In this document: positions 6,595-19,066 of the stretch, piece by piece
Layout of the letters: the number at the start of each line of letters is the position of its first letter
How positions within the stretch are numbered: position 1 is the stretch's first letter
IMG/VR virus record: IMGVR_UViG_3300048586_000265
Coordinates: 1-25,883 of that record
From: a virus
Length of the DNA: 25,883 nt
Direction: 5' to 3' (one strand)
The notes under the pieces: generated by a model
What the model was told of the DNA's origin: nothing
Seen by the model: the letters and a program-made list of their open reading frames with translations, nothing else
The model's database searches: none
Translations under genes and position numbers: made by a program

Positions 6595-6635
6595 CGGGGC
6601 CGACCGGTGTTGGCATTGTACACCGGTCGGCCCCG
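6595..6635 (-). terminator. Perfect 16-bp hairpin between dUTPase and terminase genes
   Basis: Arms 6595-6610 and 6620-6635 pair perfectly around a 9-base loop. The hairpin lies just after the dUTPase stop, so it should end the nucleotide-metabolism transcript before the late operon begins. Confidence 0.8.
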
Positions 6636-6644
6636 GTCGGTCAC
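6615..6644 (-). promoter_or_regulatory. Candidate late promoter upstream of terminase
   Basis: On the minus strand GTGACC (6644-6639) and TACAAT (6620-6615) are separated by 18 bases. They fit a sigma70-type -35/-10 pair. TACAAT sits in the hairpin loop and arm, and transcription would begin roughly 30 bases before the terminase ATG. The same design precedes the capsid gene. This is inference from consensus matching. Confidence 0.5.
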
Positions 6645-7066
6645 GCTCCGGACGAGCCGAACCCGTTGTGGCCCCTGGGGGTCTCGGGCATCTCGCCTTC
6701 GACCGGGACCACGGCCTGGGCGACGTTGAGCATGGGGATCGCCTGGCAGATCCGCTCGCCATCAGTCAGGGTGACGGCCTGGTCGGTCAGGTTGCGGACC
6801 ACGCCGAACAGCGGACCGGTGTAGCCGGGGTCGATCACTCCCGGGTTGAGCATCAGGCCCCGGTTCTTGAAGGTCGAGGACCGGCCGATCAGCAGCAGCC
6901 AGCAGCCGGTCGGTGCCTTGAGCCTGGTACGCAGCGGGATGCTGGCGAAGGCATGCGGCCCGATCCAGTGGTCTCCCTCGACGGCCAGGTCGAACCCGGC
7001 ATCGTCGTGGTAGGCCCTGGTGGGGGCCTGGCCCTGATAGATCATCCTGCCACCATGACGGGTCAT
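6641..7066 (-). CDS. dut: dUTP diphosphatase (trimeric dUTPase)
   Basis: A 141-residue enzyme hydrolysing dUTP to dUMP and pyrophosphate, which keeps uracil out of DNA. All five trimeric dUTPase motifs are visible: AGFDLAV near residue 24 (motif 1), GRSSTFKNRG near 76 (motif 2), GVIDPGYTGPL near 90 with the catalytic Asp and Tyr (motif 3), GERICQAIPM near 115 (motif 4) and RGHNGFGSSGA at the end (motif 5). ATG 7066 overlaps the previous stop by 4 bases and has GGAGGAG upstream. An internal ATG at 7045 is possible but has no better ribosome site. It is the last gene of the four-gene nucleotide operon and is followed by a strong hairpin. Confidence 0.93.
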   Translation of the reverse strand: MTRHGGRMIYQGQAPTRAYHDDAGFDLAVEGDHWIGPHAFASIPLRTRLKAPTGCWLLLIGRSSTFKNRGLMLNPGVIDPGYTGPLFGVVRNLTDQAVTLTDGERICQAIPMLNVAQAVVPVEGEMPETPRGHNGFGSSGA

Positions 7067-7440: not shown

Positions 7441-7895
7441 GCCGGGCCGCAATCGTGCTCGGCCCCGAGGCCCGGGAAGGCCCCTCCGAGGCCCTGGGAG
7501 CCCGGGGTGGCCCCAGAGGGCCCGGGCGGGCTCTCGTGGCCTCCCGTGGCCCTTCCTGGGCCGGGAAGGGGCACTCCCGGCCAGCCGCCTGCCTCCCGGA
7601 TCCGCTGGACCATCCTCACGTACACCCCCAGGTCCAGCCAGGAGTCGTCGCTGGGCATCCGGCCCTCGTGCCAGGCCGCCTCGATCCTGGCCATCTTGCC
7701 GACCGCGTAGGCCAGACAGCCCAACTCGGCGTGCTGGGCGTCGGTCAGGCCCTCGCGCCCGGCCATGTGAGCCAGCGAGCGGCCCATCTCGACCAGATCG
7801 CGGGCCCCGTACTCGACCGCCTTGGCGACCACCATCTCGATCTCGGACTCGGCCTTGGCCCGCCACCAGCCAGCCAGGGCCTGCTCGGCGCTCAC
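7434..7895 (-). CDS. MazG-like nucleotide pyrophosphohydrolase, MazZ candidate
   Basis: A 153-residue protein starting VSAEQALAGWW. The GTG start overlaps the purZ stop (GTGA). Residues 1-105 are all-helical, with Glu57 in AQHAELGCL, then AVGKMARI and PSDDSWLDLGVYVRMV (81-95). An acidic helix followed by a DxxxD-type helix is how phage MazG-like and related all-alpha NTP pyrophosphohydrolases bind Mg. In Z-genome phages the MazG-family enzyme MazZ turns dGTP into dGMP, the PurZ substrate, and the direct coupling to purZ suggests that job here. The last 45 residues are a Pro/Gly-rich tail encoded by a GC repeat that also occurs in the PrimPol gene. The classical EExxE motif is not clear, so the enzymatic call is tentative. 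Confidence 0.5.
   Translation of the reverse strand: MSAEQALAGWWRAKAESEIEMVVAKAVEYGARDLVEMGRSLAHMAGREGLTDAQHAELGCLAYAVGKMARIEAAWHEGRMPSDDSWLDLGVYVRMVQRIREAGGWPGVPLPGPGRATGGHESPPGPSGATPGSQGLGGAFPGLGAEHDCGPAC
7533..7553. repeat. GC-rich repeat copy in MazG-like tail
   Basis: A 21-base stretch, core CTCGTGGCCTCCCGTGGCCC, recurs in the same orientation at 10761-10781. It sits in a longer GGCC/GGGCC-rich segment (about 7440-7565) that encodes a low-complexity Pro/Gly tail. Confidence 0.7.
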
Positions 7896-8938
7896 TGAGC
7901 CGCCCCCATCTCGAACATGGTCCCCGGGCCGGTCCCGACCAGGGCCACCTTGGCCTGGGTCTGGTCCTCGATCATCCAGATCAGGTCCGACAGGTCCTTG
8001 GGCAGGTCCGAGTGCCAGCGGGTGCCGGACAGACCCGCGACCTGCGGGAACAGATGATCGGCCATGGTCAGCGCGATCCGGGCGACCGGGGCCCCACCGT
8101 TGGCCACCACGGCCTCGGCGGCCAGGTCCCGGTCCCAGGCCCCGACCCGGCGGGGCTTGCGAGTCACGGTGGTCAACTCGACCGGCAGACCCAGGGCCTC
8201 CCAGGTGGTCTCGCCACGCAGGGGGCCGCTGTTGCCAGCGACCCGGATCGGGTTGGGCCTCATCGCGACGTAGACCTCGAGGTCGGCCACGTTGGCCTGC
8301 CAGGGGCTCAGGCCCGCCATGGCCAGGAAGTCGATGGCCCGGCAATCGCTGCTCGTACACTGGGGGTAGAACCCGGCATGGAGCCCGAGCCCGTAGCCCT
8401 GGGTGCCCTCGATGATCACCCGGCCGCCATCGGTCAGGACCTCGTTGAGCACCACGCTGGCCTCGGTCGAGCCACCCCACAACTCGGCGGTCCGCATGAT
8501 CCGGTCGGCCCTGGCGGCCCCGATGCCCTTGCCGGTCGAGCCCACCTTGGCCGTGAGGGCCGCCTGCGCCTCGGCGACCTGGTGGCGGCCGGGCTCGAGC
8601 ACCGTCGCCTGCCAGTCGATGGTGAGCCGGTCGCGCACCTTGAACCCGGCACCCTCGAGCATCTCGATCTCGTGCTCGAGCACCGACCCGTCGATCTCCG
8701 ACCCGGCTGCGATCACCAGCAGCGCCTCGGGGTCGGTGACCGCCGCGACCGGGACGGTGCGCAGGGCCCAGACCCGTCCGGTCGGGTCGGTGGCCGAGTG
8801 CCCCGCGTTGGGACCCGCCACCCTCACGACCGCCGTGGGACCGCTGGGGTGAGGCTGGCGGCTCAGGTGCGCGACGACCGCGCCCTTGCCCTCCGAGCCG
8901 AACTGGCCGCCGACGACGACCTGGATCTTTCCACTCAT
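7892..8938 (-). CDS. purZ: PurZ-type adenylosuccinate synthetase homologue (2-aminoadenine synthesis)
   Basis: A 348-residue PurA-superfamily enzyme, the short archaeal/phage form (bacterial PurA is about 430). The P-loop is GGQFGSEGKGA (residues 10-20): Ser15 replaces the catalytic Asp of GDEGKG in PurA, the established PurZ hallmark. Other family blocks are AGPNAGHS (41-48), STGKGIGAA (134-142), EGTQGYGLGLHAG (177-189), TSSDC (195-199) and KPRRVGAWD (261-269). PurZ condenses dGMP with aspartate to N6-succinyl-2-amino-dAMP, which PurB cleaves to dZMP. ATG 8938 follows AGGAG. The gene leads a coupled operon with MazG-like, deoxyribosyltransferase-like and dUTPase genes and lies next to the putative origin. 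LTMADH (290-295) keeps an Asp where PurA binds guanine, so GTP use (PurZ0-like) is possible. Confidence 0.9.
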   Translation of the reverse strand: MSGKIQVVVGGQFGSEGKGAVVAHLSRQPHPSGPTAVVRVAGPNAGHSATDPTGRVWALRTVPVAAVTDPEALLVIAAGSEIDGSVLEHEIEMLEGAGFKVRDRLTIDWQATVLEPGRHQVAEAQAALTAKVGSTGKGIGAARADRIMRTAELWGGSTEASVVLNEVLTDGGRVIIEGTQGYGLGLHAGFYPQCTSSDCRAIDFLAMAGLSPWQANVADLEVYVAMRPNPIRVAGNSGPLRGETTWEALGLPVELTTVTRKPRRVGAWDRDLAAEAVVANGGAPVARIALTMADHLFPQVAGLSGTRWHSDLPKDLSDLIWMIEDQTQAKVALVGTGPGTMFEMGAAQ

Positions 8939-9010
8939 CTCGCTGCTCCTGTCTCGTGGTGCTGGGCCGCTATCCTAGCGTGCCCAGGGTCTGTGTATCC
9001 AGGCTGGCCT

Positions 9011-9186
9011 GTGTCCGCCCGCTCTGGTGTCCGTGTCCGTGTCCGGTGTCCGCCAGCAGATCCCGTGCCCGGCGGTGACGGCGTGTGTCCACCGTGACAC
9101 CCCCCCCCGAAGGGGGGGTCACGTGGACACGCCTCGCCGCACGATGTCCAAAGAAATAATGGACACGAGTGGACACGAGTGGACAC
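9011..9186. other. Candidate replication origin with iterons and hairpin
   Basis: The 277-bp gap between PrimPol and purZ has ten copies of one hexamer. GTGTCC occurs at 9011, 9027, 9033, 9039, 9046 and 9085, and its inverse GGACAC at 9125, 9161, 9171 and 9181. Between the two sets is a hairpin of about 19 bp (9085-9130, two single-base bulges, 6-base loop) and the only AT-rich patch here, AAAGAAATAAT (9150-9160). The last three inverse copies form 10-bp direct repeats. Iterons, a cruciform and an AT-rich patch beside a replication gene fit an origin. Promoter elements for purZ may also lie here. Confidence 0.6.
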
Positions 9187-9215
9187 GGGCCCTCGTGGGA
9201 GCGGTCCCATGGGGG

Positions 9216-11360
9216 TCATGGGAGGACCAGCCCGTCGTCTGCTCCACGCAGCCGACCGGTGTTCATCGCCCCCCGGACGGCCCCTTCGAGGGCCCGTACG
9301 CCACTCCTTCCGCCGTTCTCCTTCGCGGCCTCGGACCAGGCCACCCGGCCCGCCTTCGTGCCCGGCGAGAAAGGCTCAGGGTGGCGGGCAGCGACCAGCC
9401 CGACCAGGATCTCGATGTCGGCCTGGTCCTTGTCGCGGCGCTCGCGCTCGGCCTTGGTCGAGACGGTCCCGGAGACCAGCCCGAGCAGACGGCCTTCGGG
9501 CTCGTAGGCCAGCGGGGTCTCGGCCACCAGCACATCACGTCCCACGGCGGCGAAGGTCCGGTTCAGCGGTGCGCTGAACAGGGCCTCGAGGTCGTCGGCG
9601 GGCTCGGTGTCCTCGTCCTTGCGATCCAGCCTCCACAGGGCGTCGGGCCAGCCCTCGAAGGCCGAGGCACCCCGGGCCCGGGTCGCCGAGTGGCCGTGGT
9701 GGTGGACCACCAGCAGGTCGGCCCCGACATCGGCGGCCAGGGCGTCCAACCCGGCCAGGACCACCGCAACCTCACTGTTGCTGTTCTCGTCCATCCCGAG
9801 CCCGGCCAGCACCGGACCCAGCGGGTCGACCACGATCACTGAGCAGCCCCGGTCGGTCAGGGTCTTGCGCCAGCGGTCCCGGGCCTTGTCCGAGCGCAGG
9901 TCGAAACTGGCGGCCCGACCTCGCATCGGCACCAGGTGGATCCGGTCGGTGGCCTGCCGGTCCAGGCCGAGTGAGGAGTGCCAGTCGTGCTGCTGGCGCA
10001 GGCTCATCTCGATGTCGAATACCACGATCGACCCGTCGATCGGGGCCACGTCGAACCGGCCCAGGAACGGCTCGCCGGTCAACAGGCTGCGCTCGATGTT
10101 GAGCACCATGGTGGTCTTGCCCGCCTTTGCGCTGGCCGTCAGCAGCACCTTACCGCCACTCGGCCACAGGTCCTCGATCCGCCAGGCGACATCCTCGGGC
10201 GGGTGCTCGAGCAGGTCGGTCAGCCTGACCGGTTCAGGGTGGACCAGCGCCAGGCCCAGGCGCTCGGCGTCGTACTCGCGGGCCTCCCGGTCCAGCCGGA
10301 ACTGTTCGGCCCGGCGCACGACCGCCTGGGCCCACAGGTCGCCCGAGGGCTCGGGAGGGGCCTCGGTGGGCTCGTCAGCGGCGGTCCCGGGCTCGGCGAC
10401 CGAGCCGCAGCAGGACCACATCAGCGGGTCGGCGACCTCGATCTTGTCCAGTGCCTGCTCGACCGCCCGCTTGAACTCTTCGAACACCCCGGCCCGGTCG
10501 TCGCCCATGGCTTCCAGGAACCCGTCACGGATCAGGGCCAGTGCGTCGTTGCGCCCCGAGTGGCCCTCGGCCCACCCGGCGATCACGGCCCAGACCCCCT
10601 TGGTCATCGCGTCATGCCTGCTGCCCTCGACCATGCCCTCGATGGCCCGGGCGGCCTGCCGGGACAGGTACTCACACGGAGGACCACCCACGGGAGGCCC
10701 AGGAACGGCCACGGGAGCCCCTGGGGCGGCCCCGGGGCCCGCTGGCACCCGGGAGGCCCCCTCGTGGCCTCCCGTGGCCCTCCGTGGGCCTCGCAGGGCC
10801 AGCAGGGCGCTGGCCACCACCAGCGGCAGGACCGGCAGACTGGCGACCGGGGGCAGGAATTCCAGCACCGCACCGGTCCGCTGGTCGATCGCTCGGTACT
10901 CGGCTTGCGCGTCGGGGTTCCACGAGCCCGGGGCCATCGAGTAGCGGTGGCCGAACCGCAGGATCTCACCAGCACCGAACCCGGTAGGCAGGTCGGCCTG
11001 ATCGACCGTCTCGGGCAGCCGGTACAGCCAGTGGCCGCCCTCGTCGGCCCGAGCGTTGATCACCACTGTGGCTGGCAACTTCGAGCGCAGGGTGTCCCAG
11101 CGGATCGAGTCGCCCCCCTTGTACAGATCGACGTCCAGCGCGATCACCGAGACCGGGTAGCGCACCCCGAGGTTGCCCCAGCGCTCGGGGTCGGCCTCCA
11201 CGACCGCGTACCAGTCGGCGAACGAGGGCAGCGGATTCTTCTGCCCCTGGAACCCCCCGGGCTCGGGGGCCTTGGCCTTGGTGGCCAGCGGGATCGGGCC
11301 GTAGCCGTGCTCGGCCAGGGCCAGCGCCCGGGCCATCAGGTCCGGGTGGATCTCATTCAT
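9216..11360 (-). CDS. Bifunctional PrimPol (AEP) and RepA-like helicase/ATPase
   Basis: A 714-residue replication protein starting MNEIHPDLMARALALAEHGY behind a GGAG site. Residues 1 to about 185 form an archaeo-eukaryotic primase/polymerase domain: IALDVD (74-78) gives the catalytic Asp76 and Asp78, and EGGHWLYR has His110. A GC-repeat linker follows (about 190-230). After a helical PriCT-like segment (about 235-330) comes a RecA/RepA-type ATPase: Walker A ASAKAGKT near 408-415, VVFDIE near 446-450, the strand VIVVDPLG near 507-512 and VVHHHGHS near 553. The protein could prime and unwind at the adjacent origin. No other DNA polymerase is encoded, so either this protein or host Pol III copies the genome. 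In cyanophage S-2L a PrimPol also serves a Z genome. Confidence 0.88.
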   Translation of the reverse strand: MNEIHPDLMARALALAEHGYGPIPLATKAKAPEPGGFQGQKNPLPSFADWYAVVEADPERWGNLGVRYPVSVIALDVDLYKGGDSIRWDTLRSKLPATVVINARADEGGHWLYRLPETVDQADLPTGFGAGEILRFGHRYSMAPGSWNPDAQAEYRAIDQRTGAVLEFLPPVASLPVLPLVVASALLALRGPRRATGGHEGASRVPAGPGAAPGAPVAVPGPPVGGPPCEYLSRQAARAIEGMVEGSRHDAMTKGVWAVIAGWAEGHSGRNDALALIRDGFLEAMGDDRAGVFEEFKRAVEQALDKIEVADPLMWSCCGSVAEPGTAADEPTEAPPEPSGDLWAQAVVRRAEQFRLDREAREYDAERLGLALVHPEPVRLTDLLEHPPEDVAWRIEDLWPSGGKVLLTASAKAGKTTMVLNIERSLLTGEPFLGRFDVAPIDGSIVVFDIEMSLRQQHDWHSSLGLDRQATDRIHLVPMRGRAASFDLRSDKARDRWRKTLTDRGCSVIVVDPLGPVLAGLGMDENSNSEVAVVLAGLDALAADVGADLLVVHHHGHSATRARGASAFEGWPDALWRLDRKDEDTEPADDLEALFSAPLNRTFAAVGRDVLVAETPLAYEPEGRLLGLVSGTVSTKAERERRDKDQADIEILVGLVAARHPEPFSPGTKAGRVAWSEAAKENGGRSGVRALEGAVRGAMNTGRLRGADDGLVLP
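10761..10781. repeat. GC-rich repeat copy in PrimPol linker
   Basis: Same 21 bases as 7533-7553, in the same orientation. It sits in a GGGCC/CCACGGG-rich segment (about 10680-10800) that encodes the Pro/Gly/Ala linker between the primase and helicase halves. Confidence 0.7.
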
Positions 11361-11383: not shown

Positions 11384-11423
11384 CTCGCCCGACCCCCGGC
11401 GGTGGGTCCGGGGGTCGGGCGAG
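11384..11423 (-). terminator. Perfect 16-bp hairpin after the ssDNA-binding-like gene
   Basis: Arms 11384-11399 and 11408-11423 pair perfectly around an 8-base loop. It lies directly after the stop at 11430 and before the PrimPol start at 11360. It probably limits read-through into the replication gene. Confidence 0.75.
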
Positions 11424-13022: not shown

Positions 13023-13303
13023 TGGTCGCCCTCGAAGGTCAGCGGCGTGCGCAGGCCGGGGGTGGTCGCGACCCAGGCCAGCCGGTCTGCGTCCGAGTCG
13101 AAGTAGTGGACCAGCACCTTGGGGTTGGTCTGGGACCAGGCCGGGTCCACCAGGACCACGGCGTAGTTGCTGGCGGGCAGGTTGACGCTGTAGACCTGGG
13201 TGCCGTCCACGTCCCCGAGATGGGTGATGTGCGGGGCTCCTGCCAGGCACGCCAACACCAACTCGCGGCTGGTCGGCCGGTTGACGTCGCTGCGTCGGAT
13301 CAT
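13019..13303 (-). CDS. Hypothetical protein between PurB and exonuclease
   Basis: A 94-residue protein starting MIRRSDVNRPTSRELVLACL. The ATG overlaps the purB stop by 4 bases, and its own stop overlaps the exonuclease start. The N-terminal helix is followed by strands QVYSVNLPASNYAVVLVD and KVLVHYFDSDADRLAWVA, suggesting a small alpha/beta fold. I do not recognise a family. Tight coupling on both sides says it is really translated. Confidence 0.7.
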   Translation of the reverse strand: MIRRSDVNRPTSRELVLACLAGAPHITHLGDVDGTQVYSVNLPASNYAVVLVDPAWSQTNPKVLVHYFDSDADRLAWVATTPGLRTPLTFEGDQ

Positions 13304-14520
13304 GAGTGCTGCTCCTTGTTCGATTCGGCCGGGCGTGAGCCCAGCAGGCGGGTGATCTCGGCCAGGTGGCCGAGGTCGGGTCGAAGGTCGAGGTCGTCCA
13401 CCCGCACGGCCGGGTCGGCCGCCATCTCACGGGCGGCGGCGTACGAGACCCCGGCCCGCTGGATCTTGGTCAGCCTGGCGTGTGCGCTGGTGTTGCGGGC
13501 GGTGGCGATGTTGCGGGCCATCTGCTCGGTGTTGAACACCAGGTCGGTGACCAGCCGGGTCATCAGGTTCAGCAGATAGCCGGTCGTGTTGGCCATCTGC
13601 CCGACCAGCAGCCGCTCGACCGAGGAGTGGCTGATGTCCCGGTCATGCCAGGACGCCACGTTGGCCCACAGGGCGGTCGAATCGGCCACCACCACCCGGG
13701 CCAGCCCGCAGGCCCTCTCGGCCTCGATCGGGTTGCGCTTGCCCGGCATGGCCGAGGAGCCCGCGCGGCCCTCCGAGGCCCCTTCTCGGGCCTCGTCGAT
13801 ACCTTCCTGGGCCCACAGCCGGATCTGGACCGCCACGGCCTCGCAGGCGGTGGCCAGCCCGGCCAGGGTCGCACCCCAGGCGGCCAGCGAGTCGCGGGGG
13901 TAGATCTGGCTGGCGACCCGGGCTCGAGGCAGGCGCAGGTGCTCGGCGGCCCGGTCGGCCACGTCGGGACTGATCTCGTGGTGCCCGCCCGAGGGCCCAC
14001 CGATCTTGGCGACCTCGACCCACTCGCAGGCTTCCTGGAACCGCAGCACGCAGCGACTGACCATCAGGGCCAGGTCGAGCAGGCGGTGGCCCAGCGTGTC
14101 GATGACCGCTGACTGGCCGTGGGTCCGAGCCAGCCTCGGAGTGTCGGCATGCTCGGCCGCTCGGGCCAGCAGCGCCTCGCGCAGCCGGAACCCCTCTTCG
14201 ATCAGCACGTGGTTGACCTCGCGCAGCCGCAGGGCCAGGCCCGTGTCGGTGACGTCGCTGCTGGTCAGCCCGATGTGGACGTGCTCGAGCCCCCAGGCCA
14301 GCAGGAACCCGACGACCTCGTGGCCGCACTCGGCCGTGGCGGCCTGCCATGCCTCGACGCTGGGGGCTGGGGCCTCGAAGGCCTGCTCGGCCCAGGCCAC
14401 CGGGATCTGCCCGTGCTCAGCCTGCGCCAGCAGGACCGCACGCTCGACCGCGCACCAGGTATCCAGCACGGCCTCGGGGCACAGGTTGATCTCGACGGCG
14501 GGGTGGGTGTAGGGGCTCAT
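13300..14520 (-). CDS. purB: Adenylosuccinate lyase (phage-encoded PurB)
   Basis: A 406-residue member of the fumarase/aspartase superfamily. It starts MSPYTHPAVEIN. Family blocks in order: GLTSSDVTDTGLA near residue 82 (substrate-binding SSDV), RTHGQSAVIDTLG near 131 (catalytic His region), KIGGPSGGHHE near 170, and the signature loop GSSAMPGKRNPIEAE near 254 with the catalytic Ser. The enzyme splits succinyl-AMP to AMP and fumarate. With PurZ present, it would convert N6-succinyl-2-amino-dAMP to dZMP. The TSSDVTDT and MPGKRNP details favour ASL over argininosuccinate lyase or fumarase. ATG 14520 overlaps the upstream nuclease stop. Cellular PurB is usually 430-480 residues, so this is a compact form. 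Confidence 0.92.
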   Translation of the reverse strand: MSPYTHPAVEINLCPEAVLDTWCAVERAVLLAQAEHGQIPVAWAEQAFEAPAPSVEAWQAATAECGHEVVGFLLAWGLEHVHIGLTSSDVTDTGLALRLREVNHVLIEEGFRLREALLARAAEHADTPRLARTHGQSAVIDTLGHRLLDLALMVSRCVLRFQEACEWVEVAKIGGPSGGHHEISPDVADRAAEHLRLPRARVASQIYPRDSLAAWGATLAGLATACEAVAVQIRLWAQEGIDEAREGASEGRAGSSAMPGKRNPIEAERACGLARVVVADSTALWANVASWHDRDISHSSVERLLVGQMANTTGYLLNLMTRLVTDLVFNTEQMARNIATARNTSAHARLTKIQRAGVSYAAAREMAADPAVRVDDLDLRPDLGHLAEITRLLGSRPAESNKEQHS

Positions 14521-19033: not shown

Positions 19034-19066
19034 CTCGGCCCCCGCCAGGAGCCAGCGGGGGCCGAG
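19034..19066 (-). terminator. Terminator of the late operon
   Basis: A perfect 12-bp stem (19034-19045 with 19055-19066) and a 9-base loop, directly after the holin stop at 19074. It separates the late lysis genes from the early region. Confidence 0.8.

Follow-up and report, generated by a model that had tools for sequence, protein, structure and literature searches.

The segment from 9011 to 9186 of the virus DNA analyzed here (IMG/VR record IMGVR_UViG_3300048586_000265, a fragment of 25.9 kb, called the window throughout) is very probably a phage replication origin, in which iterons flank a hairpin and an AT-rich patch directly 3' of the gene for a PrimPol-helicase, PrimPol-AAA, that is presumably its initiator. 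A first-pass annotation had suggested an iteron-type origin downstream of PrimPol. Comparison of sequences supports that suggestion in two ways: similar clusters recur in genomes selected without regard to repeats, and the same scan recovers the known origin of phage Sfi21. We infer that the element fires as an origin, that PrimPol and not another protein binds it, and in what order opening and priming occur. The features under discussion are as follows.

7892..8938, minus strand: purZ-like gene for a 2-amino-adenylosuccinate synthetase (phrog_1211, loop GSEGKG), downstream of the element
8935..9219, minus strand: 94-aa ORF running through the repeats, judged non-coding (GC3 of 0.60, against 0.89-0.95 in real genes)
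9011..9051, plus strand: left iteron array, GTGTCC at 9011, 9027, 9033, 9039 and 9046
9083..9132, no strand assigned: GC-rich hairpin or cruciform, one iteron per arm (9085 plus, 9125 minus)
9141..9166, no strand assigned: AT-rich patch in the small inverted repeat TGTCCA-AAGAAATAA-TGGACA, a candidate melting site
9161..9186, minus strand: right iteron array, GTGTCC at 9161, 9171 and 9181, spaced 10 bp apart
9216..11360, minus strand: PrimPol (PF09250) fused to an AAA_25 helicase, 714 aa, presumed initiator and primase, upstream of the element

The repeat cluster and its surroundings

Every called gene of the window lies on the minus strand. Besides PrimPol and purZ, the window encodes a portal protein, terminase, capsid, exonuclease, RusA, dUTPase and a PurB-like lyase. 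The loop GSEGKG in the purZ product, at a place where host PurA carries an aspartate, fits its identification as PurZ from sequence. Genes for the PurB-like lyase and the dUTPase (13300-14520 and 6641-7045) accompany purZ; neither datZ nor mazZ was recognized among those window genes that were tested, and the fragment therefore seems to lack part of the pathway for 2-aminoadenine. Within PrimPol, codon usage falls to the non-coding level over residues 181-215 (about 10716-10820), a proline/glycine-rich stretch, which points to a linker or to a local frameshift from sequencing. No close relative of this phage was found in the phage records, genome contigs or viral contigs searched: the DNA search of phage records returned only a 66-bp match in purZ, the viral contigs held only distant relatives of PrimPol or PurZ, and no PrimPol was seen in the relative found through a neighboring gene.

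The first-pass count of six GTGTCC and four GGACAC copies proved exact to the base. The former start at 9011, 9027, 9033, 9039, 9046 and 9085, and the latter, which are GTGTCC read on the minus strand, at 9125, 9161, 9171 and 9181; the iteron core is GTGTCC(A/G). GTGTCC occurs 25 times in the window, against 26.6 expected from composition, and ten of these copies are packed into the 176 bp, a more extreme cluster than any other hexamer forms in the window. It also ranks top in a k-mer scan over k = 6-9, with a score of 14.2 compared to a best of 9.1 from 20 Markov-simulated genomes, and no 176-bp stretch in 60 simulated genomes held more than three copies. Chance clustering is thus as unlikely as had been claimed, and the possibility that the hexamer is equally frequent elsewhere is excluded. 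The symmetrical layout is likewise as described, with all six plus-strand copies to the left and all four minus-strand copies to the right, a sorting with a probability of 0.0095 under random orientations. Around the AT patch itself (9141-9160), six plus iterons lie on one side (9011-9090) and three minus iterons on the other (9161-9186). The end of the nearest iteron is 30 bp past the PrimPol-AAA stop codon, which places the element, as had been stated, directly downstream of the replication gene and so immediately 3' of the presumed initiator gene.

The first-pass annotation had named a GC-skew minimum elsewhere as an observation that would speak against an origin. The skew does reach its window minimum elsewhere, at 15.3 kb. 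As a refutation, this fails, because all window genes lie on one strand and the known Sfi21 origin also lies away from the GC-skew extremum of its genome. Skew is uninformative here; we dropped it as an origin test, and it lends the origin reading no support.

The central hairpin had been described as a cruciform of about 19 bp. The hairpin is real; the length is not, as the arms cover about 9083-9107 and 9112-9132, somewhat longer than claimed and with bulges. The rest of the window has at least five GC-rich hairpins like it (984-1019, 1428-1471, 6595-6635, 11384-11423 and 19034-19066), several of them intergenic, and these five are likely terminators of the U-less kind. The one at 11384-11423 sits between PrimPol and the gene upstream of it. 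With similar structures at several other sites, the hairpin was dropped as an origin-specific signature. The hairpin at 9083-9132 may itself be a transcription terminator, a role that could coexist with origin function. A stronger version strikes us as unlikely: that the hairpin, GC-rich and U-less, simply terminates or attenuates transcription between PrimPol and purZ, while the repeats either lengthen it or are there by accident. In its favor, the minus-strand RNA, transcribed in the direction of all called genes, closes its stem with a very stable cUUCGg loop, the fold of 9060-9200 on that strand (z = -4.4) is more stable than 200 of 200 shuffles, and the window has the other strong hairpins, including the one before PrimPol. 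It leaves unexplained, however, the eight further iterons outside the stem and the recurrence, documented below, of differently spelled iteron arrays 3' of primases, and no T-run follows the stem.

The patch at 9141-9160 is, as claimed, the only AT-rich one in the gap. Over the 40 bp that begin at 9141 the AT content is 55%, compared to 30% for the window, and the patch is short, most relatives reaching 63-78% AT. The 94-aa ORF that crosses the gap has ATGA overlaps with both neighbors, as in a tight operon, and the repeats could in principle belong to a real gene there. We give this explanation almost no credence: the low GC3 listed above is joined by a codon score of -0.86, the level of out-of-frame reading, and no Shine-Dalgarno-like sequence precedes the ATG of the ORF, which was rejected as a coding candidate. 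The gap between PrimPol and purZ is non-coding.

Clusters at the 3' ends of primase genes

The scan was checked against a phage with a known origin. The top-ranked cluster in the Sfi21 genome, AGTAAC at 34504-34754, coincides with a feature of its record at 34487-34784, annotated "origin of replication, 302 bp non-coding region, phage inhibitory sequence". This origin lies directly 3' of PrimPol (PF09250 + PriCT_1) and a D5-type helicase, and the element has been described as an independent origin upon infection (PMC6356513).

Twelve comparison genomes, the window included, were picked by homology of primase, helicase or purZ, blind to repeats. The strongest k-mer cluster falls within 200 bp past the primase/helicase stop in nine: the window, TinyDot, Hibiscus, Reyja, Wayne, BCJA1c, Lugh, prophiFSQJ01-1 (first 50 kb scanned) and Javan377. 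Just past the PrimPol gene of TinyDot, CCGTGGACAC arrays of both orientations surround an AT-rich tract, and the TinyDot iteron is near-identical to that of the window. Wayne is a purZ phage with its top cluster at the primase stop; in Archimedes, also a purZ phage, the PrimPol 3' end is free of clusters and the top cluster lies elsewhere. The top cluster of Olihed is at +1060, and the cluster at the primase 3' end of Castelnaud ranks third.

The same position is favored in viral contigs. In the interval from -100 to +450 bp of the PrimPol stop, the top cluster is found at 32 of 74 TinyDot-family loci (3.6 expected) and, for the Wayne family, at 15 of 19 (0.9 expected). The nominal p-values of 1e-22 (TinyDot-like) and 1e-16 (Wayne-like) are inflated, the loci being related and some near duplicates. 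At the other 42 TinyDot-family loci the top cluster lies outside the tested interval, sometimes about 1.2 kb away or within a longer ORF. Spellings across the viral-contig loci include GGGGACA, GGTGGAC, CGCCACC, TACTCA, GGAGGAAC, GTTACA and CTTACC, and because they differ so widely, inheritance of one repeat fails to explain the recurrence. Position and two-sided layout persist between relatives while iteron spelling turns over. Hibiscus and Reyja, for example, are alike in position and symmetry, with iterons CGTGGACA in the former and CCTGGAA in the latter.

Two groups of loci deserve separate mention. In six of them (L080, L081, L086, L088, L089 and L092) the GGAGGAAC clusters lie at about +1250 bp relative to the end of PrimPol, and their relative L101 has the same repeat right at the stop. 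Eleven others (L098, L099, L105, L108, L114, L115, L117, L121, L129, L131 and L135) have PrimPol ORFs of 1541-1913 aa, with an iteron-like cluster inside the ORF (e.g. CCCGTCAC in 8-10 copies) just past the usual PrimPol end. Such a cluster could be an origin enclosed in a gene fusion, or else it encodes a repetitive linker of the protein.

A search from the DNA side, in which viral contigs were scanned for three consecutive GTGGACAC copies and protein information was ignored, gave 19 loci; L040 and L049, with many evenly spaced copies, were set aside. Six of the 19 arrays lie directly 3' of a primase-helicase gene. The upstream genes encode VapE (L031 and L034), PrimPol plus VapE (L037, where 301 bp separate gene end from array start), a DUF5906 protein with a weak RFX-like DNA-binding match (L041), or TinyDot-like proteins (L035 and L039). 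At L032, the array is beside such a gene.

Several arrays are spanned by annotated "hypothetical proteins": TinyDot gp58 (L050 37236-37586), Hibiscus gp55 (L051 36175-36447), Reyja gp57 (L052 37863-38093) and prophiFSQJ01-1 gp38 (L056 20411-20755). These four are probably translations of putative origins rather than genes.

The recurrence bears on two further explanations for the repeats in the window. They might form the operator array of a repressor or activator controlling purZ, given oppositely oriented hexamers upstream of a gene whose start is 73 bp from the nearest repeat, and a 10-bp spacing on one side that suits cooperative binding on one face of the DNA. This seems highly improbable, since arrays in relatives stay 3' of the primase whatever gene comes next, the best-studied example, that of Sfi21, is an origin, and a scan for promoter-like sites of sigma-70 types found none. 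A single-strand initiation (ssi), partition or packaging site, rather than a double-strand origin, is slightly less improbable. Hairpins with flanking repeats also occur at ssi and centromere-like sites, and the window has both hairpin and repeats; in the families tested, however, the association is with primase-helicase genes and not with terminase or partition genes.

The PrimPol C-terminus as candidate reader

The PrimPols of Hibiscus and Reyja, whose iterons differ at the same place, share 95-96% identity over primase and helicase and 72-75% at the C-terminus. AlphaFold2, run on an 11-sequence alignment, predicts with high confidence that the TinyDot-like PrimPol C-terminus is a winged helix (pLDDT 95), in which residues 94-97, at the start of the recognition helix, form a variable motif. 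This motif is SRDR in all five PrimPols with GTGGACA iterons (TinyDot, Hibiscus, L065, L035 and L039) and in none of nine with other clear iterons, which carry SKDR, SADR, GRDK, ARDR, SAPQ or SKHR. Such a split has one chance in 2002, a figure uncorrected for relatedness. L061 and L062 have SRDR and no clear iteron. In permutation tests on two families, proteins with a common iteron have better conserved C-termini (p = 0.018 and 0.027); in the Wayne family, covariation of C-terminus and iteron is not significant (p = 0.25). TinyDot and Hibiscus have a common iteron although their C-termini are merely 37-39% identical. In one family of relatives, the model and the covariation support a predicted C-terminal winged helix with a recognition helix that follows the iteron. 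A search of PDB folds with the L065 winged helix gave weak matches only (e.g. winged-helix proteins DtxR/IdeR), none below E = 0.001.

An apparent domain swap is seen at L073 and L074, where the PrimPols are 85% identical in the helicase part, 22% identical at the C-terminus, and accompanied by unrelated iterons; the DNA-reading domain would have been exchanged together with the putative origin.

The PrimPol of the window lacks SRDR, and its helicase is AAA_25, unlike that of TinyDot. Its C-terminus gave a poor single-sequence model (pLDDT 48), which was discarded as too poor for use, and for that reason we infer only by analogy that this C-terminus reads the iterons. A precedent exists in the plasmid protein PolpTN2, whose C-terminal winged helix, part of a PrimPol, has been suggested to recognize the origin (PMC5862659).

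Known systems, proposed mechanism and meaning

The closest described layout is that of the SaPI/PICI pri-rep-ori module, where the origin lies immediately 3' of the initiator gene and two iteron sets flank an AT-rich region (PMC6092414); a 2018 paper called this layout, iterons around an AT patch 3' of the initiator, unique to PICIs. The window element resembles it in lying 3' of the presumed initiator gene with iteron sets on both sides of an AT patch, and differs in the GC-rich hairpin between the sets. Its carrier differs as well. PICI satellites depend on helpers for virion proteins, whereas the window has portal, terminase and capsid genes of its own and belongs to a tailed phage; it encodes PrimPol (PF09250) + AAA_25 and not a PICI Rep. 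By analogy, then, the element would work like a PICI origin in a carrier that is no PICI.

The Sfi21 origin of 302 bp (PER element) is similar in being non-coding, 3' of a PrimPol/primase-helicase, and composed of iterons, AT tract and hairpin. It differs in its iteron (AGTAAC), its PriCT_1 PrimPol with separate D5-type helicase, and its AT-rich genome; the window protein, PF09250 + AAA_25, has no D5 match and falls outside the Sfi21-type primase-helicase families, and no sequence common to Sfi21 and the window was seen. Gordonia phage TinyDot likewise has a PF09250 PrimPol, and right after it come GTGGACAC/GTGTCCAC arrays of both orientations that enclose an AT-rich tract. However, its helicase half is DUF3987-like rather than AAA_25, its 14 iterons lie in two blocks, and the order of its arrays relative to the gene is reversed; its record carries no origin annotation.

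For SCCmec Cch2, putative-origin repeats are bound specifically by the C-terminal domain of the helicase (PMC7581432). There too the repeats lie directly downstream of the helicase gene of a mobile element; that element is a staphylococcal cassette, its helicase has no fused PrimPol, and the repeats are of 5 nt, AAGTG. Start motifs have been described for other PrimPols, GTG for pRN1 ORF904 and GTGA/GTGG for NrSPol of the deep-sea phage NrS-1 (PMC8718748). The window iteron contains GTG, but those motifs are single-strand priming sites, and the match is no rule because iterons of other relatives (CCTGGAA, GTTACA) lack GTG.

We propose that an initiator, most likely PrimPol-AAA acting through its C-terminal DNA-binding domain, would bind both oppositely oriented iteron sets. 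Either the AT patch or the hairpin would then serve as the loading site for the helicase ring of PrimPol-AAA, and synthesis would be primed at the element by the PrimPol domain at the N-terminus. By analogy, the iterons might double as priming sites (they contain GTG, and GTGG in one orientation); this stays a possibility for the window because the iterons of Reyja and Wayne are without GTG, which led us to reject iterons as universal PrimPol priming sites. Three hydrogen bonds join 2-aminoadenine to T (PMC8342488). If this base is present in the genome, the AT patch would be expected to melt less easily, and the hairpin would weigh more.

What the comparison suggests is a known kind of origin in an unexpected carrier, and by implication a kind much wider than described. 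Judged from sequence, a PICI-like layout is common in ordinary phages, a generalization that may have been stated before, our literature search having covered open-access papers. We see about even chances for a broader proposal: that most bacterial phages with PrimPol/primase-helicases share one origin type, placed 3' of the initiator gene, in which iterons spelled differently from phage to phage flank an AT core on both sides and are recognized by a winged-helix domain at the C-terminus of that initiator, and that its recognition helix and the iterons change together as a private origin code. The pairing of iteron and recognition helix would then be a testable specificity code.

Phage genomes rarely carry annotation of a replication origin. 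Here, in many of the phages examined, a candidate origin came out of a simple scan of the sequence behind the primase gene, which also hit one known origin, and some annotated "hypothetical proteins" just past primase genes are probably translations of putative origins. The presence of a PICI-type layout in ordinary phages bears on the relationship between satellites and phages: if the proposal is true, the layout called unique to PICIs would be a general phage design.
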